Made by a program: the position numbers and the translations under genes. DNA of 64,000 nucleotides. Source: an uncultured Bacteroidota bacterium (lineage in GTDB: Bacteria; Bacteroidota; Bacteroidia; Flavobacteriales; Schleiferiaceae). The stretch spans positions 62,001 to 126,000 of the forward strand of contig CAJXNI010000002.1 in NCBI GenBank assembly GCA_913057235.1, written 5' to 3'. Under the pieces are notes generated by a model that saw nothing but the letters and a program-made list of their open reading frames with translations, was not told the DNA's origin and did no database searches. Shown here in pieces: positions 25,479-56,273 of the stretch (position 1 is the stretch's first letter; every line of letters starts with the position of its first letter).

Positions 25479-26945
25479 ATGCAGAAAAAAGCAATTGTTG
25501 TAGGTAGTGGTGTAGCCGGATTAGCTACGGCTGCTCGTTTAGCCGCCAAAGATTATAGTGTCACTGTTTTTGAGGCACACAATACCTATGGCGGTAAATT
25601 GGGGCTCACCGGTAATGAGCGGTATCGGTTCGATTTAGGCCCATCCCTTTTTACACTGCCGCATTTAGTGGAGGAGACCATTTTAAACTGCGGAAAAAGG
25701 CCTTTTGATTATTTCGAGTACAGCCAACGAGAGGTGGCTTGTGAATATTTTTGGGATGACGGCACGCAACTCACCGCCTGGGGTAAAGCAGAGCGTTTTG
25801 CAGAAGCCGTGTACCAATCCCTGGGGGTTAAACCCGATGTGGTTCTGGATTATTTGAGAATGTCGGCTCGTATTTACAATACCACCCGACCCGTTTTTTT
25901 GGAGAAATCATTACATCGGCTGCAGTCTTACGGAAACCGGGATACCCTCAAAGCTGTTTTACAAATGCACAAACTGCATTTGACCAACACCCTGCATGGC
26001 GTAAATTCCAAAAAACTACAACACCCTAAACTTATTCAGCTCTTTGATAGGTTTGCTACCTACAACGGAAGTAGCCCTTATCTAACTCCTGGGGTGATGA
26101 GTAGTATTCCTCACCTGGAGCATAACATTGGCACTTTTTACCCCAAAGGAGGAATGCGTTCTATTGTAACCGCCTTGTACCAATTAGCCTGTGACTTAGG
26201 TGTGCATTTTGAGTTTAACAGCCCTGTACAGCGCATCAAGGTAGAAAAGGGGAGAGCAACTGGAGTAGAAGTGGCCCATAACTTTTATTCAGCCGATACG
26301 GTGGTGAGTAATATGGATGTAGTGCCTAGTTACCGCAAGCTTTTAAAAGACCAGCCTGCACCTGAAAAAACCCTGGGGCAAGAAAGAAGCTCTAGCGCCC
26401 TTATTTTTTACTGGGGTATTCAGCACTCTTTTAAGCAATTAGACCTTCACAATATTTTCTTTAGTGAAAACTACCAAGCGGAGTTTGAAGCTATTTTTGA
26501 GCAGAAAACCGTGTTTGAAGACCCCACCGTTTACGTAAACATCTCCTCAAAAGCCGAAGCAGCAGATGCGCCACCCAGTTGCGAAAACTGGTTTGTAATG
26601 GTAAATGTTCCAGGCAATACGGGTCAGGATTGGGATGCTTTGATTCCCACGGTGCGAAAGGCGGTGCTACATAAATTGAGTAAAAATTTAGGGATAGAAG
26701 TAGAGCCACTTATAGAGTATGAAGACGTTTTAGACCCGCGAAAAATTGAAAAGAACACGGCTAGTTATCAGGGCTCGCTTTATGGGGCTAGCAGCAATAA
26801 TACGCTTTCGGCATTTTTGCGGCATCCTAACTTTAGTCAAAAAATTAAAAATCTTTATTTCTGTGGAGGCAGTGTACACCCCGGAGGAGGCATACCTTTG
26901 TGCCTGCTGAGTGCAAAAATTACTGCTTCTTTAATACCGGATTGA
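25479..26945 (+). CDS. crtD: Carotenoid desaturase, probably 1-hydroxycarotenoid 3,4-desaturase CrtD (CrtI family)
   Basis: 488 residues from ATG 25479. The N-terminal FAD-binding motif KAIVVGSGVAGLATAARLAA is followed by EAHNTYGGKLG and the CrtI-type RFDLGPSLFTLP. The C-terminal motif is LYFCGGSVHPGGGIPLCLLSAKI. These mark the phytoene desaturase superfamily. I favour CrtD over CrtI because no phytoene synthase is adjacent and the following genes encode CruF and CrtZ, a set that makes 3',4'-desaturated 1'-hydroxy carotenoids. CrtI cannot be excluded by reading. The next gene starts one base after its stop. Confidence 0.85.
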   Translation: MQKKAIVVGSGVAGLATAARLAAKDYSVTVFEAHNTYGGKLGLTGNERYRFDLGPSLFTLPHLVEETILNCGKRPFDYFEYSQREVACEYFWDDGTQLTAWGKAERFAEAVYQSLGVKPDVVLDYLRMSARIYNTTRPVFLEKSLHRLQSYGNRDTLKAVLQMHKLHLTNTLHGVNSKKLQHPKLIQLFDRFATYNGSSPYLTPGVMSSIPHLEHNIGTFYPKGGMRSIVTALYQLACDLGVHFEFNSPVQRIKVEKGRATGVEVAHNFYSADTVVSNMDVVPSYRKLLKDQPAPEKTLGQERSSSALIFYWGIQHSFKQLDLHNIFFSENYQAEFEAIFEQKTVFEDPTVYVNISSKAEAADAPPSCENWFVMVNVPGNTGQDWDALIPTVRKAVLHKLSKNLGIEVEPLIEYEDVLDPRKIEKNTASYQGSLYGASSNNTLSAFLRHPNFSQKIKNLYFCGGSVHPGGGIPLCLLSAKITASLIPD

Positions 26946-27584
26946 ATGGCGAAGTTTCAACTTTTTTGCAGGCAATATGGCCTGCCGCTGGTGGCAAGCC
27001 TGCATGTGTTTGGGCTGTTCACTATTTTGCTTTGGGATGCAGACTTCTTTACCCAATTTACACCGGTAACATTGCTGTTCACAGCGGTGGTTTTGGTGGG
27101 GGCGCATCAGGGTAACCTCAAACATTTAAGCTATTTCTTAATAAGCACCTACGTGATAGGATATGGGGTTGAGCTACTGGGTACCCAAACAGGCTTTCCT
27201 TTTGGGGAGTATTGGTATGGCGATAATCTACGCCCACACTTAATAGGAGTACCCCTGGTGATTGGCTTTAACTGGATTATTTTAACGCTGGCTACCCACT
27301 TTTTAGTGAAGCATTTTTCAAGCAATAAATATGTCATTGTTATTGTGGCTTCAATGCTCATGGTTGGCCTTGACACTGTAATTGAACAAGTAGCCCCACC
27401 TCTGGATTACTGGCACTGGGCGCAAGAGATTGTTCCGCTTATGAACTACGCGGGCTGGTTTGTAGTTTCCCTAATTGTGCACGGGCTGGCTTACTATTGG
27501 TTAAGTTCGCATAAAAATGCAGTAGCCCGTAATTACTTTTGGGTGGTAATTTTATTTTTCATGATTTTTAGTTTGGCTTTATGA
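26946..27584 (+). CDS. cruF: Carotenoid 1,2-hydratase, CruF family
   Basis: 212 residues with about seven membrane helices. The family signature is GYGVELLGTQTGFPFGEYWYG followed by LRPHLIGVPLVIGFNW, matching the Caroten_synth (DUF422/CruF) family, whose members add water across the 1',2' double bond of the acyclic psi end of monocyclic carotenoids. It has a GLDTVIEQVAPPLDYWHW stretch that is also characteristic. It lies between crtD and crtZ, with its stop overlapping the crtZ start (ATGA). Confidence 0.88.
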   Translation: MAKFQLFCRQYGLPLVASLHVFGLFTILLWDADFFTQFTPVTLLFTAVVLVGAHQGNLKHLSYFLISTYVIGYGVELLGTQTGFPFGEYWYGDNLRPHLIGVPLVIGFNWIILTLATHFLVKHFSSNKYVIVIVASMLMVGLDTVIEQVAPPLDYWHWAQEIVPLMNYAGWFVVSLIVHGLAYYWLSSHKNAVARNYFWVVILFFMIFSLAL

Positions 27585-28078
27585 CGTGGTATTGGATTGC
27601 CTTAATTGTATTTACTACATTTTGGTTTATGGAGTTTGTAGCCTGGGCTACGCACAAATATGTGATGCACGGCTTTTTGTGGAGTTTACACCGAGATCAT
27701 CACGTCAAGGATCCTGGTTTTTTTGAGAAAAATGATGCCTTCTTTCTAATTTTTGCGGTACCCAGTTGGTTGTGCATCATGTTGGGAATGATGGCCGGAA
27801 GCTGGATTTCTGTAAGTATTGGGGCAGGTATTGCCGTTTACGGTTTTGCTTACTTTTTGGTGCACGAAGTATTTATTCACCGCAGGCTTAAATGGTTTAG
27901 AACTAGTAAGTTCACCTATCTCAAAGCCATTCAGAGAGCGCACAAAATGCACCACAAGCATTTGGGTAAGCATGATGGCGAAAGTTTTGGCATGCTCATC
28001 ATAAATCCCAAGTACTACCAGGCAGAATTGAAAGCGCAACGCAAGCGTAGAGGAAAAACGGTTGTTTCTGCCTCTTAA
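27581..28078 (+). CDS. crtZ: Beta-carotene 3-hydroxylase CrtZ
   Basis: 165 residues, membrane-bound fatty-acid-hydroxylase fold with the di-iron histidine boxes: HKYVMH (26-31), HRDHH, HEVFIHRR and HKMHHKH. These match bacterial CrtZ, which puts hydroxyl groups on C3 of beta-ionone rings. The start overlaps cruF by 4 bases. Its TAA stop is interleaved with the stop of the convergent phosphoribosyltransferase gene (TTAA at 28075-28078). Confidence 0.93.
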   Translation: MTWYWIALIVFTTFWFMEFVAWATHKYVMHGFLWSLHRDHHVKDPGFFEKNDAFFLIFAVPSWLCIMLGMMAGSWISVSIGAGIAVYGFAYFLVHEVFIHRRLKWFRTSKFTYLKAIQRAHKMHHKHLGKHDGESFGMLIINPKYYQAELKAQRKRRGKTVVSAS

Positions 28079-34290: not shown

Positions 34291-35022
34291 ATGGATTTTA
34301 GCATTTTTCTAACCAGTGAGGCGTGGATAGCCTTTTTGACCCTGAGTTTGCTGGAGATTGTTTTGGGTATTGACAATATCATTTTCATCTCAATTCTAAC
34401 CAATAAACTGCCCGAAGTTATTAGAGGCAGGGCTCGTTTTGCCGGAATTGCCCTCGCCCTTATTTTTAGGGTGATCATGCTTTTGGGGATTACTTGGATT
34501 ATTGGTTTAACCGAGCCCTTGTTCACCCTTTTTGAGATGGCCTTTACCGGAAGAGATCTGGTGCTTTTGGCTGGGGGCTTGTTCCTCATTGGCAAGTCTA
34601 CCAGTGAAATTCACCACAAAACGGAAGTGCAAGACCCTAAAGAACAAAAACAAGCTCTAAAGAAGAAAGGCGCCCGCTCTTTTGTGTCCATCATCATTCA
34701 AATTGGCCTGCTAGACATTGTTTTTTCATTTGATAGCATTCTCACCGCCATCGGCATGACCGAAGAATTGGTCATAATGATTATGGCTGTTATTGTTTCT
34801 TTAGTAGTGATGTTGGTTTTTGCCGGTAAAATAGCCGCCTTCATTGAGAAGCACCCCACCTTGCAAGTATTGGCCTTATCCTTTCTAATTCTAATTGGTT
34901 TTGTACTTATTGCCGATGGGCTGCATCAGCATATTAGCAAGGGCTACATTTATTTTGCGGTGGCTTTTTCACTAATGGTAGAAATCATAAACATTAGGGT
35001 ACGTAAAAAAGACACCACTTAA
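34291..35022 (+). CDS. TerC family integral membrane protein
   Basis: 243 residues with about seven membrane helices. TerC signatures are present: LEIVLGIDNIIFISIL with the metal-coordinating Asp in the first part, and DIVFSFDSILTAIGM in the second half. The His/Lys-rich cytoplasmic loop (HHKTEVQDPKEQKQ) is typical. Members of this family have been linked to tellurite resistance and to manganese export for metal loading of exported enzymes. Either role fits. The 3' end overlaps the convergent NRPS gene by 4 bases. Confidence 0.92.
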   Translation: MDFSIFLTSEAWIAFLTLSLLEIVLGIDNIIFISILTNKLPEVIRGRARFAGIALALIFRVIMLLGITWIIGLTEPLFTLFEMAFTGRDLVLLAGGLFLIGKSTSEIHHKTEVQDPKEQKQALKKKGARSFVSIIIQIGLLDIVFSFDSILTAIGMTEELVIMIMAVIVSLVVMLVFAGKIAAFIEKHPTLQVLALSFLILIGFVLIADGLHQHISKGYIYFAVAFSLMVEIINIRVRKKDTT

Positions 35023-37262
35023 TCGTTGGCTATAAACTCTCTAATGGCCTTCACTATTTGAGCGTTAGACTCTTTATTAGTCATTATTTCACGATGATTA
35101 CCCCGTAGTGGTACATGCTTACAAGTCTTGTATTTGCTTTGCCAGTATTTTAAAGAGGTGTTAGTCAATTCTAAGTTGGCGTTAGAGGAAAAATACAGAG
35201 ACTTGAGGTTGGTGGTTTTTATGTGTATGGCTCTCCTAAAGGCGGCTACTGCCTGACCAAATGGTCCAGAGGCTAATTCAGTAGGTACAATATTGTTATT
35301 GCTGGCCTTTCTAGAAAAGGCGTTTCTGATTTTTCTTACCAGGCCTGTAGAATGAAAATGATAAGGACCAGGGTTACTCACTCCATCATAATGGAAGGTA
35401 TCAATATGAATTACCTTTTGGCAATTTTTAGTTTGTTGCGCTAAATAATGAACCAAAAGTCCGTTAAGGCTATACCCCACTAGAACAGTGCTGGGTAGTT
35501 GCTGAATACAATCTTTCATTTTGAATATTGAATCTAGCAACAACTCATTGGACTGCGTAATTTTAAACAGGTCATAATGAAGCCAATAAGTGTTAAATTC
35601 TTGGTGCTTACCTTCCAAAAGATTTTTGAAGAACCTTTGTGCTCCAAAATGAGCTACCAAAATTAAATTAGGTCTGTCCTTCTTGATTTCACCGACTGAT
35701 TTAATTGAAAACAAAAAATCTCTTAACCATTCATTTTCATAGGCTTCAAGCAGTAAATTTATGGTGTGAAAGCTATGTAACAGGTCTTCCCGAAAGGGTA
35801 AACTTAATTTGCTGCAAATAGCTTCTCCTAATAGAAGCACGCCCAGGGAATCGCCTCCTAAATCAAAAAAGTAACTGTCATCATCATCAATGTTAGTATG
35901 ACCAAAGTGTTGGTAAAAACAACTTCTAATAATTTCTTTTACCCCTTGTTCTTTGGTTTTTAGGCCAAAGGGATTTTCCACTAATTTTAGCAGTTTCTCC
36001 TGATTCACTTTACCGCTATGCGTTTCTGGAAACTTTTGAAGATGAATAAATCGTGGGCTGAAGCCCATTTGTGCGTAGAGCGGCACTAATTCTTCAATTA
36101 AATAGATTTTTCCCGAGTAAAAGATTAAAACCTGACCATAACTTGAATAAGGGTTTTGTAAAGCTTTCACCTGCGTGACACCTGCTAAATTGAGAAGTAC
36201 CTGTTCTACAATTTTGAGATTTAACCATCGTCCTTTAACCTTTACCTGTTGCTGGGCGCGGCCTTTAAAATAAAGGGCTCCATCAGGAGCAAGCACGCCC
36301 AAATCACCCGTGGATGTCCAGCCATGCTCGTCATGTTCTACCTGTATTTCACCAAAGTCTTGCTGGTCTGGGGCTCTTAAAATTTTTACGGGTTTAACAG
36401 GATAGCCTAAAAGGTCGGGCTGGTACTGATGAAGCTCTGACTTTTGATAGGTCTTTTGAGCGATAGTTCGTAACTCTGTGGTAGCATAAGATATTTGAAG
36501 ACGGCACTTTGCGGGACATTTCTTGGCAAATAGCTGTAAATCCTCAGGTAGAATAGGCTCGGCCCCCAGGCACACAAACCGCAGGCTTTTAAAGGCTTCT
36601 GCATCATTTATACGGGCCAGGGTTCTAAATGCACTGCTGGGGAGTGAGCTGAAGTTCACATGGTTTTTCCGCCAGAAAGAAGGCAGTTCTTGAATGCCCA
36701 TTTTTTTGCTATCAAATAGAGCCAGGGTGGCCCCGGTGAGCAAAGCGGGCAGGTAGCAGGCTAAGCTGGCGCTGAAAGAAAAGCTGAAAATTTGATCAAT
36801 TACATCTGCCTCAGAAATGTGGTTATCACATATTTGACGTTGCGTATCTTCCCAGATAAAGGAGTTGGAGTGCTGCACCAGGCTTGGCTTTCCCGTACTT
36901 CCAGAAGTTTGGAACAAGCATAGGCATTCGGCTTCTAAAAACGCTGCTGTGCTCAGGCAAAAATCATTTTCCTCCAGCAGGGTCTTTCCAGGTAATAACT
37001 GGTCTTTGTTGCTACCGGTAACACTAAAGTAGGGGAGGCCCCAGTACAGAGCTGCCACCACATATTGCAGATGAACCAAGGGCTCTGCAGCCCTAATTTG
37101 CACCAATGCGTGGGAGCCTTTGCAGTGTTTAAACTCAGGTTGGTTCACACAAAATTTCTCTAAATCACGGTAGCTTAAGCTCTTTTGCTTAGCAACAATA
37201 GCCGCTTTAGCAGCATGTTCTCTAAAAACTTCTTTAAGCCTTGCTTGAAAAATGGTGTGCAT
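35019..37262 (-). CDS. Single-module NRPS: adenylation, carrier protein, thioesterase
   Basis: 747 residues. The adenylation domain (about 1-435) shows A3 TSGSTGKP (119-126), A5 SYATTE, A7 TSTGDLG (316-322), A8 GRAQQQVKVKGRW (334-346) and A10 SGKVN with Lys418. The carrier domain (about 440-510) has the phosphopantetheine site LGGDSL with Ser472. The thioesterase (about 530-747) has GYSLNG with Ser598 and a terminal catalytic-His motif RGNH (His723). There is no condensation domain. The A4 region reads FSFSFSAS where amino-acid-activating domains have FDxS, so the substrate may lack an alpha-amino group. The nucleophile elbow has Asn where Gly is usual. It overlaps the upstream GNAT gene by 29 bases. 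The product is unknown. Confidence 0.88.
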   Translation of the reverse strand: MHTIFQARLKEVFREHAAKAAIVAKQKSLSYRDLEKFCVNQPEFKHCKGSHALVQIRAAEPLVHLQYVVAALYWGLPYFSVTGSNKDQLLPGKTLLEENDFCLSTAAFLEAECLCLFQTSGSTGKPSLVQHSNSFIWEDTQRQICDNHISEADVIDQIFSFSFSASLACYLPALLTGATLALFDSKKMGIQELPSFWRKNHVNFSSLPSSAFRTLARINDAEAFKSLRFVCLGAEPILPEDLQLFAKKCPAKCRLQISYATTELRTIAQKTYQKSELHQYQPDLLGYPVKPVKILRAPDQQDFGEIQVEHDEHGWTSTGDLGVLAPDGALYFKGRAQQQVKVKGRWLNLKIVEQVLLNLAGVTQVKALQNPYSSYGQVLIFYSGKIYLIEELVPLYAQMGFSPRFIHLQKFPETHSGKVNQEKLLKLVENPFGLKTKEQGVKEIIRSCFYQHFGHTNIDDDDSYFFDLGGDSLGVLLLGEAICSKLSLPFREDLLHSFHTINLLLEAYENEWLRDFLFSIKSVGEIKKDRPNLILVAHFGAQRFFKNLLEGKHQEFNTYWLHYDLFKITQSNELLLDSIFKMKDCIQQLPSTVLVGYSLNGLLVHYLAQQTKNCQKVIHIDTFHYDGVSNPGPYHFHSTGLVRKIRNAFSRKASNNNIVPTELASGPFGQAVAAFRRAIHIKTTNLKSLYFSSNANLELTNTSLKYWQSKYKTCKHVPLRGNHREIMTNKESNAQIVKAIREFIAND

Positions 37263-37983
37263 AAAAAGTAGTGCAGACTTTAAAACCTTGTTGTTGCAAA
37301 TTTAGGCTACTAATGCCATCGGCATAAGCCCAACTGCATAATTTGGAAAAACCGAGCTTTGTCGCTTGTTGCAACCTAAATGCAATCATTTCTTTATGAA
37401 ACCCCCTTTTTTGAAAAGGTTTTAACACCACACCAGCCGATAAAAAGGCCTCCTGCTTTTTGGAAAACATAGCGCACAGCCCAACTGAACAACCCTTTAG
37501 TTGAACACGCCAAACTTTGTGATTGCTATGCCCTAGCAACTTCTTAAAATTGGTTAATACCTGAGGGTTAGCTGGGTCGGAAATAGATTTAAAGCCCTTT
37601 AAGTAGAGGCGAGCGTAGCAAGGGGCATGGGTTGGCTCTAATAGTGAAAAATCTAAGTCTGAGTGAAATTCAGTGCTTTTTGAAACATTCATTTCCAGTA
37701 AGTCAAAACGTTCGGTCAGGAATGGCTGGTGGGAGCAGTTTGGCTCAAGGGTGATCCATTTAAAGCGTTTGATTCCTTTGGCCAAATAGAATTTCTGGAC
37801 ATTTATAAAGTCAGGTTGGGTGAAGCTTGTTGCTGATAAGAGATAATTAAAATAATCAAGACCTTTAAAAAAATGAGCTTGTTTATCATTTATCTCGAGG
37901 CTCCCGCAAGCATTTCCTGCTTGAGCAAATTGCGCAACTCTAAATGCATCGTACTCAAAAATAAGGTGTTGATTGAAATTCAT
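37234..37983 (-). CDS. GNAT-family acyltransferase coupled to the NRPS gene
   Basis: 249 residues from ATG 37983; a longer frame to 38070 starts with TTG and is less likely. The C-terminal half has the GNAT acyl-CoA site: SAGVVLKPFQKRGFHKEMI, with QKRGFH at about 191-196 as motif A, and then SSLNLQQQGFKV as motif B. The N-terminal half has a similar strand/helix rhythm without these residues and may be a degenerate second GNAT domain. Its end overlaps the NRPS start by 29 bases. It probably acylates the NRPS product or supplies its substrate. TATATTTA at 38008-38015 could be its -7 box. Confidence 0.8.
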   Translation of the reverse strand: MNFNQHLIFEYDAFRVAQFAQAGNACGSLEINDKQAHFFKGLDYFNYLLSATSFTQPDFINVQKFYLAKGIKRFKWITLEPNCSHQPFLTERFDLLEMNVSKSTEFHSDLDFSLLEPTHAPCYARLYLKGFKSISDPANPQVLTNFKKLLGHSNHKVWRVQLKGCSVGLCAMFSKKQEAFLSAGVVLKPFQKRGFHKEMIAFRLQQATKLGFSKLCSWAYADGISSLNLQQQGFKVCTTFYAHHFSSKA

Positions 37984-38117
37984 CGAAATTTTGCGCAAGA
38001 ACCTCGGTAAATATACGCTGGTTCCTAACACTGGCCTTAATCTAGAGATGCTTTTACTTGCCACACTCAATCAATACTTTATCTTTGAGCTTTTATTAAC
38101 TCTAACTTTACATTCGT

Positions 38118-49898: not shown

Positions 49899-51518
49899 TT
49901 AGTTCATCTCAGGTCTCTGGGCGGCTTGGCAGAAGGTTTCAAAAGCCTCTTCGCTAATGCTCCAGTCGGGCGCCTCACCCTTGCCCCAAACTTTGGGGTT
50001 ATCGTATAAGTTGAAGTAACAAGCGCCTACCACTCTGGGTGCTCTATGCAACACTTTACCAGCTTCTTGCAACCATTTTTTCTGAAAATCATCAGGCCCT
50101 TTTACCCCAAACTCTGTAATAAAAATAGGCGCGGTGACCTGCCGCATGCGCCATTGCTTACGATTGAATATCTCTCTGAAACGCTCCTGTTCTCTGTGGT
50201 CTTCAATGTTTTTATCGGGTAAACCATAAATGGCCAGGCTAATAAAATCAACGGCATCTTCTCCTGGGTACCACTCCAGCGAGCCGCGGTCACCGGCTGG
50301 ACCCCAAACTTTAAAAATATGCCGTGGTAAGTCTCCATGGTAATTCATGAAATACCGATAGGCCTTTATATAGGTTAAAGGGTTTTGGCTTTGCCAAGGG
50401 TAGCGCTCTATAGGGATTTCCATTTCATGCGCAAAACGCAAATAAACCGTAGTTTGGATAGAATTAAGTAAATCATACATACTGTCTAGAGTAGCATCGT
50501 AACGGCCCTCCAAAATATTTTCCAGTACCCTACGGTCGTGATTGGCGGCCGCGTCTTTAAATGGCTCCACAGTGAGTGTTAAAACATCACCCCGCGCTTC
50601 TAAAGCTTTAATTTTAGCTCTCAGCTCTGGCTTATGCGTGTTGTGCCAGTTTATGAAGATATGCTCAGCCGCCACCCTGCGGTGAGCCAATAGCCGTTTT
50701 TTGGGGTCATACAGCCCAACCAAAAAGTTGGTAGGCTTATGCCGATTACTGGTTAAAGGTATTTGGAGGCTCTCTTCCAGAGACTTCTGTTCGGCCAAAA
50801 TTTTTGTACCATCCACGTTAAGTTGAGATTGGGCGGTATCGGTTAGTATCAAACAGGTTTTTTCAGACCACCTGAAACGATGCAATCTGCGCAATAGATG
50901 ATATTCAGCAGAGTCATAAATGGGGTAGGCATCAAAGCGTTCTTCTGCGGGCGGGTACAAAACTAAGGCATTGGCATCAATTATGGAATCCCCGGGGTGG
51001 TACTCCATGCATCCGGGGTACCCCGAGGCTAAAAATACCAGCTGCACCGCAGGTGCGTTTTCACGGATTATTTGAGCCATGTGTATAAAGCTTTCTAAAT
51101 AAAGTTGGGGTTGTTGCATTTGCCAGGGAGCCCATTTCTCTGGTAATTCCGGGTAAGGATTAAATGCTAGGTAGGTGGTGGTGTCTCGTATTTTTAAATA
51201 CTTAGCCAAAAGCTTTAATTGTTGGTCGTAACCGCCTGCTATAATGGTTTTTAAAACTCCAGAGTACCCCTGATGAAGGGGGCTGAAGGACCAAGATTTA
51301 AAGCTAATGAATAGGGGTTGATTCTCCATCCTCGAGAGCTTTTGCTCCACCGCCAAGGGGTGTCTGATACTTTTGAGGTACAACTCCAGGTGATTAAGGT
51401 CTTGGGCCGCCTCAAAAAATTCCGCATTTTGATTCACCCAGGCCACTTTCAGATTAGAATTTATAGGACCATTTGGATTTTCATCATCTGTGGAGCCCAC
51501 CAAAAAATACCACGCCAA
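49899..51518 (-). CDS. GH26-like protein with two tandem barrels; N-terminus cut by an in-frame stop
   Basis: The open frame gives 539 residues from TTG 51518. The second half resembles a GH26 beta-mannanase-like barrel: LRFAHEMEIPIERYPW carries the expected acid/base Glu (HEM at 364-366), SLEWYPGEDAVDFISLAIYG follows, and ITEFG (Glu469) would be the nucleophile. The first half repeats the pattern (LAFNPYPELPEKWAPW, YHPGDSIIDANALVLYP) without the acid residues, so it looks like a degenerate duplicate. Upstream in the same frame ATG 51569 reads MRKQLF, a TAA at 51551-51549, then FSTLGLALAFLAWYFLVG, which would be an ideal signal peptide. The true start is therefore uncertain. Confidence 0.7.
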   Translation of the reverse strand: MAWYFLVGSTDDENPNGPINSNLKVAWVNQNAEFFEAAQDLNHLELYLKSIRHPLAVEQKLSRMENQPLFISFKSWSFSPLHQGYSGVLKTIIAGGYDQQLKLLAKYLKIRDTTTYLAFNPYPELPEKWAPWQMQQPQLYLESFIHMAQIIRENAPAVQLVFLASGYPGCMEYHPGDSIIDANALVLYPPAEERFDAYPIYDSAEYHLLRRLHRFRWSEKTCLILTDTAQSQLNVDGTKILAEQKSLEESLQIPLTSNRHKPTNFLVGLYDPKKRLLAHRRVAAEHIFINWHNTHKPELRAKIKALEARGDVLTLTVEPFKDAAANHDRRVLENILEGRYDATLDSMYDLLNSIQTTVYLRFAHEMEIPIERYPWQSQNPLTYIKAYRYFMNYHGDLPRHIFKVWGPAGDRGSLEWYPGEDAVDFISLAIYGLPDKNIEDHREQERFREIFNRKQWRMRQVTAPIFITEFGVKGPDDFQKKWLQEAGKVLHRAPRVVGACYFNLYDNPKVWGKGEAPDWSISEEAFETFCQAAQRPEMN

Positions 51519-51654: not shown

Positions 51655-52908
51655 ATGCTTTGGAAAAAACACACAAAACAAGAAATACAAACGCGCGTAT
51701 TTCAGGCGCTGGAAGAAAATAGAAATTACGACTCAGATTATATTTTGGGCATACCGGGTAGTTATTTAGATACGGAACAGTTTCACCGTGATGCGGATTT
51801 TCTGGCCAATGCACCTTACCTAAAAACCTTCATTAATAATCCAAATCACATTGGCTGCCACACGCTTACCGGTGCTGATGGAGAAGATCTTTTTAGAGGC
51901 ACTCAAAAGCTGGAGATTGAGCTAATCCAAATGGTATCAGAAGAAATATTGCACGCCCCAAAAAACAGCGTAGATGGCTACGTGGCGCCTGGGGGCACCG
52001 AAGCCAATATTCAAGCCCTTTGGATTTACCGCAATTTTTACCAAAAAGAACAGGGCGCTAAAAATGAGGAAATTGGAGTGATTTTCAGTTCAGATAGTCA
52101 CTATTCATTCTACAAAGGAGCCAACCTCCTTAGCATTAAACCCTTGCCAGTAAAGGTAGATGCGGATACCCGAAGTTTGGGAATGGCCGGTCTCAGAGAA
52201 AAAATTCAGGAGGCTAAGCAAATGGGAATTAAATACTTTATTGCCAACGCCAACATGAGCACTACTATGTTTGGTTCAGTAGATGACCCAGACATTTTGG
52301 CCGCGGCTTTTGAAGCCGAAAAAGTACCGTATAAAATACATGCAGACGGGGCTTTTGGAGGTTTCATTTACCCCTTTACCAACCCAGAAAGTAAGTTGGA
52401 TTTTAGAAACCCAAATATCACCTCCATAACTCTTGACGCGCACAAAATGCTTATGGCGCCCTATGGCACGGGTATTTTTCTAATTAGGAAGGATTGGATG
52501 CATTATGCAGCTACAGCTGAAGCTCAGTATGTGCAGGGCCTGGACTACACCATGGTAGGCAGCCGTAATGGGGCACAGGCCGTTTCCATTTGGATGATTC
52601 TACAAACCCATGGACCTAGAGGGTGGCGCGAAAATATCCAGTCGTTAATGGATGAAACTTCACGCGTGACCGATGTGCTGGAAGAATTAGGGATACCCTA
52701 CTACCGCAATCCGCACATGAATATCATCAGCATGCATGCTTCGGCCGTACCGCCCGAAGTTACCCAAAAATACCGCTTAGTAGCCGATGATTTTGAGGGC
52801 GTTCCCAAGTGGTGGAAGATTGTGGTAATGCCCCACACCAAAGGAAAGGTAATTGACAACTTTATAAGCGATTTACGAAGGCTTAAAGGCGCTCTCAATA
52901 ACCAATAG
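51655..52908 (+). CDS. Pyridoxal-phosphate-dependent decarboxylase (group II type)
   Basis: 417 residues, fold-type I PLP enzyme. Features are GYVAPGGTEANIQALWIYRN (phosphate site), DSHYSFYKGANLL with the ring-stacking His149, HADGAFGG with Asp231, and TLDAHKMLMAPYGTG with the Schiff-base Lys264. The group decarboxylates amino acids such as aspartate, glutamate, histidine or tyrosine. Substrate is not readable; the shorter form without the large N-terminal extension fits the histidine/aspartate-type subgroup. It stands alone between divergent and convergent neighbours. Confidence 0.88.
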   Translation: MLWKKHTKQEIQTRVFQALEENRNYDSDYILGIPGSYLDTEQFHRDADFLANAPYLKTFINNPNHIGCHTLTGADGEDLFRGTQKLEIELIQMVSEEILHAPKNSVDGYVAPGGTEANIQALWIYRNFYQKEQGAKNEEIGVIFSSDSHYSFYKGANLLSIKPLPVKVDADTRSLGMAGLREKIQEAKQMGIKYFIANANMSTTMFGSVDDPDILAAAFEAEKVPYKIHADGAFGGFIYPFTNPESKLDFRNPNITSITLDAHKMLMAPYGTGIFLIRKDWMHYAATAEAQYVQGLDYTMVGSRNGAQAVSIWMILQTHGPRGWRENIQSLMDETSRVTDVLEELGIPYYRNPHMNIISMHASAVPPEVTQKYRLVADDFEGVPKWWKIVVMPHTKGKVIDNFISDLRRLKGALNNQ

Positions 52909-53610: not shown

Positions 53611-54303
53611 ATGCCTGTAACGCTTTTGCAAATTCATAGGTTTCAATCGGTGAAAGCCAAATGGTGGGCCTTTAAGCAAATGCCTACTTACGCCCAGAAA
53701 TTGAAATCCCAGTATGGAGCCCGCTTCGCCAAACAGCTAGGTACGGGAGCTGGAGAAGGCTTCTCCCTTTGGCCGGATTGGAGCACCTATTGCACCTTAA
53801 GTGTTTGGGAACATACTGCAGCAGCTCACCACTATTTAAACTCCCAGGCCTTTAGGCAGTCTTTTAAAGATTATAGCTTTGCCTCTACAAATATTTGGAT
53901 GAAGGGCATTTTAAGCAGGGGTCAGTGGAATGGTGAAAATCCTTTTGTAGAACAAAAAGGTAATGCAAACCCAGAATTATTAGGGGTAATTACCCGCGCT
54001 TCTATTAAGAAAAAAATGCTGGCTAAATTTTGGTCAAATGTACCGGCTGTAAGTAGGAGTATGCATCAATTACCTGGCAAGTTATATTCTAAAGGAATAG
54101 GGGAGCGCCCGCTCTTAGAGCAGGCCACTTTTAGTGTTTGGGAAAACCAAAAACTGATGCAAAACTTTGCCTATCATCAAAAAGAACATAAAAAAGTGGT
54201 GCAAAAAACCCAGCAGCTAAATTGGTATTCAGAAGAGCTTTTTGCCCGTTTTGAAATAGTTAAAATAGAAGGTGAACCCCTTTTTAAACCTGAAAATAGT
54301 TGA
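53611..54303 (+). CDS. crtA: Spheroidene monooxygenase-like carotenoid oxygenase CrtA
   Basis: 230 residues. The pattern follows CrtA of purple bacteria along its length: AKWWAFKQM, FAKQLGTGAGEGFSLWPD, YCTLSVWEH, then GQWNGENPF, ITRASIKKKMLAKFWSNVP, GIGERPLLEQATFSVWEN and WYSEELFARF. CrtA inserts a keto group at C2 of the acyclic methoxy/hydroxy end of spheroidene. The organism also carries crtD, cruF and crtZ at 25.5-28.1 kb. It is transcribed with nhaA (9 bases) and a nitroreductase. The assignment is by recalled motif similarity. Confidence 0.82.
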   Translation: MPVTLLQIHRFQSVKAKWWAFKQMPTYAQKLKSQYGARFAKQLGTGAGEGFSLWPDWSTYCTLSVWEHTAAAHHYLNSQAFRQSFKDYSFASTNIWMKGILSRGQWNGENPFVEQKGNANPELLGVITRASIKKKMLAKFWSNVPAVSRSMHQLPGKLYSKGIGERPLLEQATFSVWENQKLMQNFAYHQKEHKKVVQKTQQLNWYSEELFARFEIVKIEGEPLFKPENS

Positions 54304-54311
54304 AAAAATAA

Positions 54312-55640
54312 ATGGATAAAAGACACGAACCCATAGACTACATTGCCAAACCTTTAAATAGACTTTTTGGCAATGAAGCTTCCATAGGTATTATTTTATT
54401 TTTATCCGCTGTAGCGGCCATAGTGGTAGCTAATTCCAGTTGGGGGGCTGAGTGGTATCACCATTTTTGGGAACATGAAGTTACCCTTTCCTGGGATGAC
54501 CAATCTTTTGAATTAAACCTGCACCTGCTCATTAACGATGGCTTGATGGCCATTTTCTTCTTTTTAGTGGGTTTGGAAATTAAGCGCGAGTTTTTGCAAG
54601 GGCAACTGAGTACTTTCAAGCAGGCTTCTTTACCCATTGGTGCGGCCTTAGGTGGCATGTTGTTTCCGGCTGGTCTCTATCTTTTATTTAATGATGGCGA
54701 TACAGTCAAAGGCTGGGGAATACCCATGGCAACTGATATTGCTTTTACCTTGGGGCTAATAAGCCTGGTGCGCAATAGAGTGGCGCGCAGCGTAAAAGTC
54801 TTTGTAACCAGCCTGGCGGTGGTTGATGACATAGGAGCTGTTCTGGTGATTGCCTTTTTTTACACCTCTAACTTAGACGTCACACAGCTTTACGTGGCTG
54901 GTGGTGCCCTACTTTTTTTAGTCATCGCCAACCGTTTGGGGGTGCGTAGCGTGCTGTTTTACACTTTCGTGGGAATTTCAGGGATTTGGGTAGCATTTTT
55001 CTACTCCGGCATTCACCCTACCATTGCGGGCATTCTATTGGCCTTTACCATTCCCGCCAGTACGCGCATCACCAAAGATCAGTTTACCGATCGCCTGAAA
55101 AGGCTGTACCGAAAATATTTAAAAGCCGGTGAGGTAGACACTTTTGTAAATACCGGGCGTGAAGACAAACTTTTAAAAGGCATACGGGAAGCCGGAGACG
55201 ATGCCCGGGCACCCTTGCAAAAAATTGAGGCTGGGTTGCACGGTTTTGTGTACTACATTATTATGCCGTTGTTTGCTTTTAGCAATGCCGGTTTAAAAAT
55301 AGAAAGTAACTTTTTAGACCTACTCTTGGGGCCCATAGGTTTAGGAATTATTATTGGCTTGTTAATAGGTAAGGCCATTGGTATTACCTTAATTTCCAAA
55401 CTAATGGTAACATTGGGTATCTCAGAATTGCCCGAGCAGTCTAATTGGTTTCAAATATTTGGAGTAGCCATTTTAGCGGGCATTGGTTTTACTATGTCGC
55501 TCTTTATTTCAGAACTAGCCTTTAGCGATCCTGAAAAAGTAGATGCAGCTAAATCAGCTATTTTAGTAGCTTCCACCCTGGCCGGAATCATAGGCCTACT
55601 ATTTATTCAATTCACCAGTAAACGCAGAGAAGTATTATAA
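54312..55640 (+). CDS. nhaA: Na+/H+ antiporter NhaA
   Basis: 442 residues with about 12 helices. Family signatures include INDGLMAIFFFLVGLEIKREF, PMATDIAFTLGLI, and VVDDIGAVLVIAFFY with the conserved adjacent Asp pair of the ion site; ILAGIGFTMSLFISELAF is near the end. It exports Na+ in exchange for protons and supports salt and alkaline tolerance, consistent with a marine habitat. A longer charged loop between helices 8 and 9 (residues about 255-310) is present, as in many Bacteroidota NhaA. The nitroreductase gene starts directly after the stop. Confidence 0.96.
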   Translation: MDKRHEPIDYIAKPLNRLFGNEASIGIILFLSAVAAIVVANSSWGAEWYHHFWEHEVTLSWDDQSFELNLHLLINDGLMAIFFFLVGLEIKREFLQGQLSTFKQASLPIGAALGGMLFPAGLYLLFNDGDTVKGWGIPMATDIAFTLGLISLVRNRVARSVKVFVTSLAVVDDIGAVLVIAFFYTSNLDVTQLYVAGGALLFLVIANRLGVRSVLFYTFVGISGIWVAFFYSGIHPTIAGILLAFTIPASTRITKDQFTDRLKRLYRKYLKAGEVDTFVNTGREDKLLKGIREAGDDARAPLQKIEAGLHGFVYYIIMPLFAFSNAGLKIESNFLDLLLGPIGLGIIIGLLIGKAIGITLISKLMVTLGISELPEQSNWFQIFGVAILAGIGFTMSLFISELAFSDPEKVDAAKSAILVASTLAGIIGLLFIQFTSKRREVL

Positions 55641-56273
55641 ATGAATGCTAAAAAAGAAGCGCAAACGCAATTGAACCTTATTCCCGAGATAAGCCAACGT
55701 TGGAGCCCCCGAGCTTTCGGCCCCAAAGAAGTAAGCAATGAAGATTTAGAAACCCTTTTTGAAGCAGCCCGCTGGGCAGCCAGTTCAGGCAACTTGCAGC
55801 CATGGCGTTTTTTAGTGGCTAAAAAAGGCACCCCGGCTTTTCAGAAAGTTTTAAAAGGCATGGCTTCTGGCAACGTAAGCTGGGCACAGCACGCTCCCGT
55901 ATTAGTGGTAACCATGGCGCAGAAAACCCGTGTTTCTAGTAATGGTGAGAAAAAGCCCAACCCGCATGGCTGGCATGATTTAGGTCTGGCTATGGGTAAC
56001 CTTTCGGCCCAAGCCACTAACATGAAGATACATTTGCACCAAATGGCGGGCATTCAACCGCGTGAATTGGAGAACCTTTTTCAGGTAGATACGGAGTTTT
56101 TTGAAGTGGTAACCGCTTTTGCCTTGGGCTATTTTGATGAAGAATCTATGGAGCAACTGAATGAAAAACAGCAACAAAGTGAACGCGCAGCGCGAGCCAG
56201 AAAGCCTTTAAAGGAGTTGGTTTTTGAAAACTCATTTGCCCAAAGTGCTAAATGGTTGAGCAATGAAGATTAA
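55641..56273 (+). CDS. Nitroreductase family protein
   Basis: 210 residues, FMN-dependent nitroreductase fold. RWSPRAFGPKEVSNEDLETLFEAARWAASSGNLQPWRF is the N-terminal family signature, with HDLGLAMGNLSAQATNMKIH in the second half, where the usual LAAxxxGL appears as NMKIHLHQMAG. Substrate is unknown; the group reduces nitroaromatics, quinones or flavins. It begins directly at the nhaA stop. Confidence 0.9.
   Translation: MNAKKEAQTQLNLIPEISQRWSPRAFGPKEVSNEDLETLFEAARWAASSGNLQPWRFLVAKKGTPAFQKVLKGMASGNVSWAQHAPVLVVTMAQKTRVSSNGEKKPNPHGWHDLGLAMGNLSAQATNMKIHLHQMAGIQPRELENLFQVDTEFFEVVTAFALGYFDEESMEQLNEKQQQSERAARARKPLKELVFENSFAQSAKWLSNED

Follow-up and report, generated by a model that had tools for sequence, protein, structure and literature searches.

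The window analysed here, a stretch of 64,000 nucleotides from an uncultured bacterium of the Bacteroidota (Flavobacteriales, Schleiferiaceae), carries a gene of the crtA type, and the question it raises is whether the encoded enzyme puts a keto group or a single hydroxyl group on the acyclic end of a carotenoid. An earlier note on this DNA suggested that the organism may make a 2'-keto derivative of a saproxanthin-like carotenoid. The note compared the gene with purple-bacterial CrtA only and omitted the CrtA homologues of Bacteroidota, named CrtA-OH, which are reported to be 2-hydroxylases of myxol biosynthesis that insert one hydroxyl (PMC11855829). The gene of the window very probably encodes such a CrtA-OH-type carotenoid 2'-hydroxylase, converting a saproxanthin-type intermediate to myxol.

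The crtA-type gene and the carotenoid genes of its genome

The open reading frame at 53611-54303 (+) starts with ATG and encodes 230 amino acids without an internal stop. It is classed as a crtA-OH-type gene for a predicted carotenoid 2'-hydroxylase (psi end) from its NF045923 match (below cut-off), the tree, the cut-off controls and the fold. Residues 1-221 correspond to positions 1-221 of the 226 in the NF045923 profile, 'spheroidene monooxygenase', with an E value of 1.9e-55 and 187.7 bits, which is far beyond chance and lower than the curated cut-off of 300 bits. This nearly end-to-end match agrees with the full-length CrtA-type protein described in the earlier note. The gene is the only one of the NF045923 type in its genome (2.83 Mb, 99.97% complete).

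The crtD-cruF-crtZ operon reported for the window is real and spans 25479-28078. It consists of crtD for a 1-hydroxycarotenoid 3,4-desaturase (25479-26945, +; NF042421, 683 bits, cut-off 500), cruF for a carotenoid 1',2'-hydratase (26946-27584, +; PF04240, E 3.5e-30, 105.9 bits, cut-off 25) and a crtZ-like gene for a beta-ring 3-hydroxylase (27581-28078, +). Because searches of Pfam and NCBIfam gave no match for the last protein, it is named by homology and by position in the clusters of relatives; the proteins encoded at the CrtZ position share 54% (L033 cluster) and 77% (L063 cluster) identity with it. The distance from the end of crtZ (28078) to the start of crtA (53611) is 25.5 kb, in line with the 25 kb noted before.

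The remaining genes of the pathway are found elsewhere in the genome, which in all encodes CruF, CrtD, CrtZ (by homology only), CrtY, CrtB and CrtI. Contig 16 has crtI-crtB-idi, idi being named by eye, and on contig 32 (L060:5351-8902) the gene of a lycopene cyclase CrtY (PF05834) is clustered with those of a beta-carotene dioxygenase and a photolyase-like protein. CrtYcd was considered as the cyclase and rejected, TIGR03462 having no match in the genome. The absence of CrtF stated in the earlier note also holds, since PF00891 (Methyltransf_2) has no match in the whole genome. A search for CrtW with PF00487 gave two genes, one with a weak likeness to fatty-acid desaturases and one without an NCBIfam match that by eye is like an alkane hydroxylase. 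Since neither gene is near the crt genes, a 4-keto ring is not predicted for the pigment. The gene set is, as judged from sequence, that of a monocyclic, 1'-hydroxy, 3',4'-didehydro, 3-hydroxy-ring carotenoid (saproxanthin) with a CrtA-type enzyme in addition.

A microbial rhodopsin gene is located on contig 28 (L061:6809-7534), beside genes that by eye are heme-biosynthesis-like. Myxol as an antenna pigment for this rhodopsin is a possible idea only, and nothing relevant to it was found in the literature searched. With a full myxol gene set, retinal synthesis and a rhodopsin in one genome, the strain or its relatives are testable as myxol sources.

Downstream of crtA, an nhaA Na+/H+ antiporter gene (54312-55640, +; PF06965, E 2.1e-138) begins 8 nucleotides after the crtA stop, directly followed by a gene for a nitroreductase-family protein (55641-56273, +; PF00881, E 1.4e-22). 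Given this spacing the three genes may form one transcription unit, and nhaA, which does not encode a pathway enzyme, is probably co-transcribed with crtA. The Bacteroidota-type -7 promoter box, TAnnTTTG, was not found upstream of crtA or crtD of the window. The location of crtA 25 kb from the operon, with nhaA and the nitroreductase gene, counts against a role in the myxol pathway.

Upstream of crtA, the gene at 51655-52908 (+) encodes a pyridoxal-dependent decarboxylase that is like tyrosine (202 bits) and histidine (184 bits) decarboxylases, with both scores below the respective cut-offs. The gene at 49899-51518 (-) encodes 539 amino acids that by eye form two alike, sugar-hydrolase-like halves in one fused chain. 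At 35019-37262 and 37234-38070 (-), an adenylation-type enzyme that ends in carrier-like and thioesterase-like parts stands, as judged by eye, beside an acetyltransferase-like gene; these are possibly a small stand-alone biosynthetic unit.

The C2' hydroxyl could also be glycosylated or acylated afterwards, so that the pathway would end in a derivative of myxol. Such derivatives, glycosides of myxol, are known from cyanobacteria (title of Graham and Bryant 2009). Among the listed open reading frames, inspected by eye, no glycosyl- or acyltransferase adjoins either crtA or crtD-cruF-crtZ, and a modified end pigment is regarded as quite improbable.

Relatives of the protein and its partners in other genomes

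The scores against NF045923 separate the purple-bacterial proteins from those of Bacteroidota. Seven of ten matching CrtA proteins encoded on plasmids were taken for comparison. All five purple controls, CrtA proteins from Rhodobacterales photosynthesis plasmids whose genes are in every case directly followed by bchI, were above the cut-off of 300 bits (328-365 bits). The five other Bacteroidota proteins tested (two of Nonlabens type, one from the same order and two from the same family as the window) were all below it (188-215 bits).

The phylogenetic tree of 125 rows gave the same division. A branch with full support (100*) set the five purple rows apart from the rest. The window protein grouped with L044, which comes from its own family, at an unstarred support of 94, and L045 and L046 were close by. 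Left out of the tree were the window's own copies (L001, L043), fragments (L018, L027, L030, L031), weak DUF3291-like matches (L028, L029), the larger duplicates (L032-L039, L060-L077), L085 (identical to L045) and L111 (identical to L048). The comparison with purple-bacterial CrtA that the earlier note had proposed as a check therefore places the protein with Bacteroidota, outside the purple clade. At positions 172, 188, 200, 206 and 211 one residue is fixed in all five purple rows and a different one is found in 97% or more of the remaining 119 non-purple rows; at each of these positions the window protein agrees with the non-purple rows.

The identity of the window protein is 38% to its counterpart in Nonlabens xiamenensis, which belongs to the same genus as the tested N. 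spongiae, and 31% to CrtA of Roseobacter litoralis, so that hydroxylase relatives are only modestly closer than ketolase relatives. N. spongiae CrtA-OH expressed in Escherichia coli is reported to convert 1'-hydroxytorulene to deoxymyxol, and to give myxol together with CrtZ, with no keto group according to the authors (PMC11855829). The same 2-hydroxylase activity is reported for Flavobacterium P99-3 (Rahlert et al. 2009, as cited in PMC11855829).

A 2'-ketolase would perform two successive hydroxylations at C2' followed by loss of water, and the product would be a 2'-keto carotenoid of saproxanthin type. The window protein is homologous to the purple enzymes, with 31-35% identity to the Rhodobacterales plasmid copies, which is in keeping with a ketolase. 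The step from hydroxylase to ketolase needs little, because purple CrtA is described as hydroxylating twice before water is lost, having evolved from crtA-OH by gain of the second hydroxylation (review, PMC10604819). The CrtA of Rubrivivax, a ketolase, is reported to have been acquired from Bacteroidetes by transfer (PMC2889829), and the clade alone does therefore not fix the product. As ketolase activity arose within the CrtA family, a 2'-keto product has a precedent there. The tested members from Bacteroidota are nevertheless reported to yield hydroxyl products (PMC11855829), and both the score below 300 bits and the five diagnostic residues of the window protein are against a ketolase. A purple-type ketolase was rejected as the best explanation on the cut-off, the tree and the gene neighbours, and a 2'-keto product is considered highly improbable. 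A conjugated 2'-keto group also lengthens the chromophore. Schleiferia thermophila (Flavobacteriales), with the same gene set (crtBDEIYZA and cruF), is reported to have carotenoids mostly with a myxol-like chromophore (PMC4148732), which points in the same direction.

The distribution of the gene agrees with a carotenoid function. Of 247 genomes from the class, among them that of the window, 28 had a match to NF045923, and 26 of these matches were strong. CruF is present in all 26 genomes with a strong match as against 103 of the 247 overall (hypergeometric 1.6e-11, shared ancestry ignored), and CrtD above its cut-off in all 26 as against 97 of 247 (2.7e-12, likewise ignoring shared ancestry). 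The 26 exclude G056 (E 1.3e-8; with CruF and CrtD) and G074 (E 7.5e-10; with neither), and include G086, where the gene is broken by stops, and G208, where it is in two pieces at contig ends. The G086 gene (contig 5:64062-64738; L027, L030) has four in-frame stops and is probably a decaying copy; CruF and CrtD are retained in that genome. In the family of the window, crtA is present in 14 of the 24 other genomes searched.

The gene neighbourhoods of relatives were compared in a named set, the best 80 of 594 confirmed stretches, which leans to Bacteroidota and has 13 loci shorter than 9 kb. Another crt gene is found within 8 kb of the CrtA gene in 49 of these 80 contigs, and 41 hold both CruF and CrtD. 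In Nonlabens xiamenensis (L160) and in a genome of the same order as the window (L033) the arrangement is crtA-crtY-cruF-crtD-crtZ-crtB-crtI, the same seven-gene set as that published for myxol (PMC11855829). In G262 (L063/L085), of the window's family, crtA-nitroreductase-crtD-cruF-crtZ lie within about 5 kb, which bridges the two loci of the window, crtA-nitroreductase and crtD-cruF-crtZ. In G260 (L044/L062), also of this family, crtA adjoins nhaA; in G260 and G264 nhaA or the nitroreductase gene is kept as a neighbour of crtA.

These data bear on a further explanation, in which the protein is a member of the DUF3291/ABM barrel group with a role outside carotenoid synthesis that is tied to nhaA and the nitroreductase. 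A weak Pfam match to DUF3291 (E 2.4e-4, under the cut-off) and the separation of crtA from the crt operon speak for it. The strong NF045923 match, the occurrence with CruF and CrtD in 26 of 26 genomes and the crt neighbours, both in the 49 of the best 80 of 594 and in G262 of the same family, speak against it, and the probability left to a non-carotenoid enzyme is close to negligible. A CrtA homologue that fits a saproxanthin-type pathway with CruF, CrtD and CrtZ, as the earlier note proposed, is thus supported.

Genes of the CrtA type were also seen further afield. In an uncultured bacterium (L143) and a Myxococcales MAG (L146) one is found in a crt cluster with crtB, crtD, crtZ and crtY, and in L143 also crtI; neither cluster has a CruF match, and gene transfer together with another hydratase possibly accounts for them. 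Outside purple bacteria and Bacteroidota, CrtA-type proteins with 31-32% identity to that of the window are encoded on a Deinococcus taeanensis plasmid (L084) and in Nonomuraea gerenzanensis (L083), where they are unannotated or named 'hypothetical protein'.

In the preferred reading, a myxol 2'-hydroxylase, CrtB and CrtI would give lycopene, CrtY would cyclise one end of it, CruF would hydrate the 1',2' bond and CrtD would desaturate 3',4'. The window CrtA would then hydroxylate C2' with one oxygen atom of O2, and hydroxylation of ring C3 by CrtZ would give myxol; this order of substrates is presumed. A single hydroxylation is expected by analogy with the tested homologues. The free 1'-hydroxyl end, with C2' as the site of action, fits the proposal of the earlier note. 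The 2'-keto product probably does not, as the tree, the cut-off and the neighbourhoods side with CrtA-OH and the tested Bacteroidota enzymes insert a hydroxyl. Nor is the mass of saproxanthin plus 14 expected; the shift from saproxanthin to the predicted product myxol is +16 Da. Some dicyclic pigment may be formed as well, since N. spongiae CrtY alone is reported to have made mostly beta-carotene (PMC11855829).

The finding is largely ordinary, because tested marine relatives among the Bacteroidota make the known orange pigment myxol by the same step. The label 'spheroidene monooxygenase' in a Bacteroidota genome usually stands for a myxol 2'-hydroxylase, and a new keto-carotenoid need therefore not be expected from it.

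Predicted fold and candidate heme ligand

The AlphaFold model of the window CrtA (pLDDT 91.7, pTM 0.88) has two ferredoxin-like halves. The fold search matched five aldoxime dehydratase (Oxd) entries over the whole chain at Z 14.3-15.7 (rmsd 3.5-3.9, 220-223 aligned, 7-9% identity), the top match having Z 15.7, rmsd 3.5, 222 aligned and 7% identity; the next row had Z 8.4. With Foldseek alone other two-domain monooxygenases were better by E value, but at an rmsd of about 16. No sequence relative was found in the PDB with the window protein or with the family profile. PF13816 (Oxd) had no match among 48 members of the CrtA family at E up to 1. Across 395 genomes of the phylum it gave one partial match, to what is presumably a DUF4188-type protein by its looks.

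Aldoxime dehydratase is reported to hold its heme in the C-terminal half through the proximal His299 (PMC4835899). Counting along the chain of the Oxd entry 3w08 puts residue 299 at the second His of the motif SHPTH, its final residue. In the window CrtA, His193 is invariant across all 125 rows. Profile comparisons with nine Oxds (9 of 33 Oxd records) placed His193 on the column of the proximal His in both family profiles, weakly in each case: E 6.4e-4 and probability 28% for A1 (26 hand-picked rows), E 0.074 and 0.8% for A2 (P0001 and 47 of the 80 named loci). A first comparison of the family with a single Oxd piece of 65 amino acids was negative. The fold search gives aligned ranges rather than residue pairs, and the pairing of His193 with the proximal His comes from these profile comparisons, made without an unrelated-profile control.

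His193 is a candidate heme ligand of the window CrtA, and a probable one, in agreement with the 5-coordinate heme reported for CrtA (PMC10604819). The purple enzymes are reported to require O2 and reduced ferredoxin (PMC10604819). The model, the 5-coordinate heme and this ferredoxin dependence are the grounds for the chemistry proposed as likely: a two-domain alpha+beta barrel like that of aldoxime dehydratase would carry the heme of a monooxygenase, and His193 would be the proximal iron ligand. The electron donor would be external, for example reduced ferredoxin as in the purple enzymes.

The whole CrtA/CrtA-OH family could then be an unrecognised branch of heme alpha+beta barrels with the packing of aldoxime dehydratase and His193 as proximal iron ligand. 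Residues near His193 that are fixed differently in the purple and Bacteroidota clades (188: Arg or Tyr; 200: Val or Thr) would help to set whether the reaction ends after a single hydroxylation (myxol) or proceeds to the ketone (spheroidenone). This combined proposal is tentative, plausible without being probable. No paper with both 'aldoxime dehydratase' and 'CrtA' was found in the literature searched, and the paper on heme barrels (PMC4835899) uses neither 'spheroidene' nor 'carotenoid' in its main text. The barrel assignment may be the sole part of the finding that is new. If true, it would make the CrtA family a heme oxygenase of non-P450 type that has a histidine ligand and attacks C-H bonds of carotenoids and, once confirmed, would give the family a first structural frame and a testable difference between hydroxylase and ketolase.

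Comparison with known systems

The CrtA-OH enzymes of Flavobacterium P99-3 and Nonlabens spongiae agree with the window protein in family, length, phylum and the partners CruF, CrtD, CrtZ and CrtY. The window gene differs from these systems in lying 25 kb from crtD-cruF-crtZ, beside nhaA and the nitroreductase gene, and in belonging to a different sub-branch of the tree, the sequence compared being that of N. xiamenensis and not of P99-3 or N. spongiae. With the purple CrtA spheroidene monooxygenase/2-ketolase (NF045923) the window protein shares full-length homology and the same carbon of the acyclic end, but it is below the equivalog cut-off, in a separate clade, without adjacent photosynthesis genes and without CrtF. 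Aldoxime dehydratase (Oxd, PF13816) has the predicted whole-chain fold and domain packing in common with the window CrtA, which is shorter, has 7% identity and no PF13816 match, and would catalyse a different reaction.
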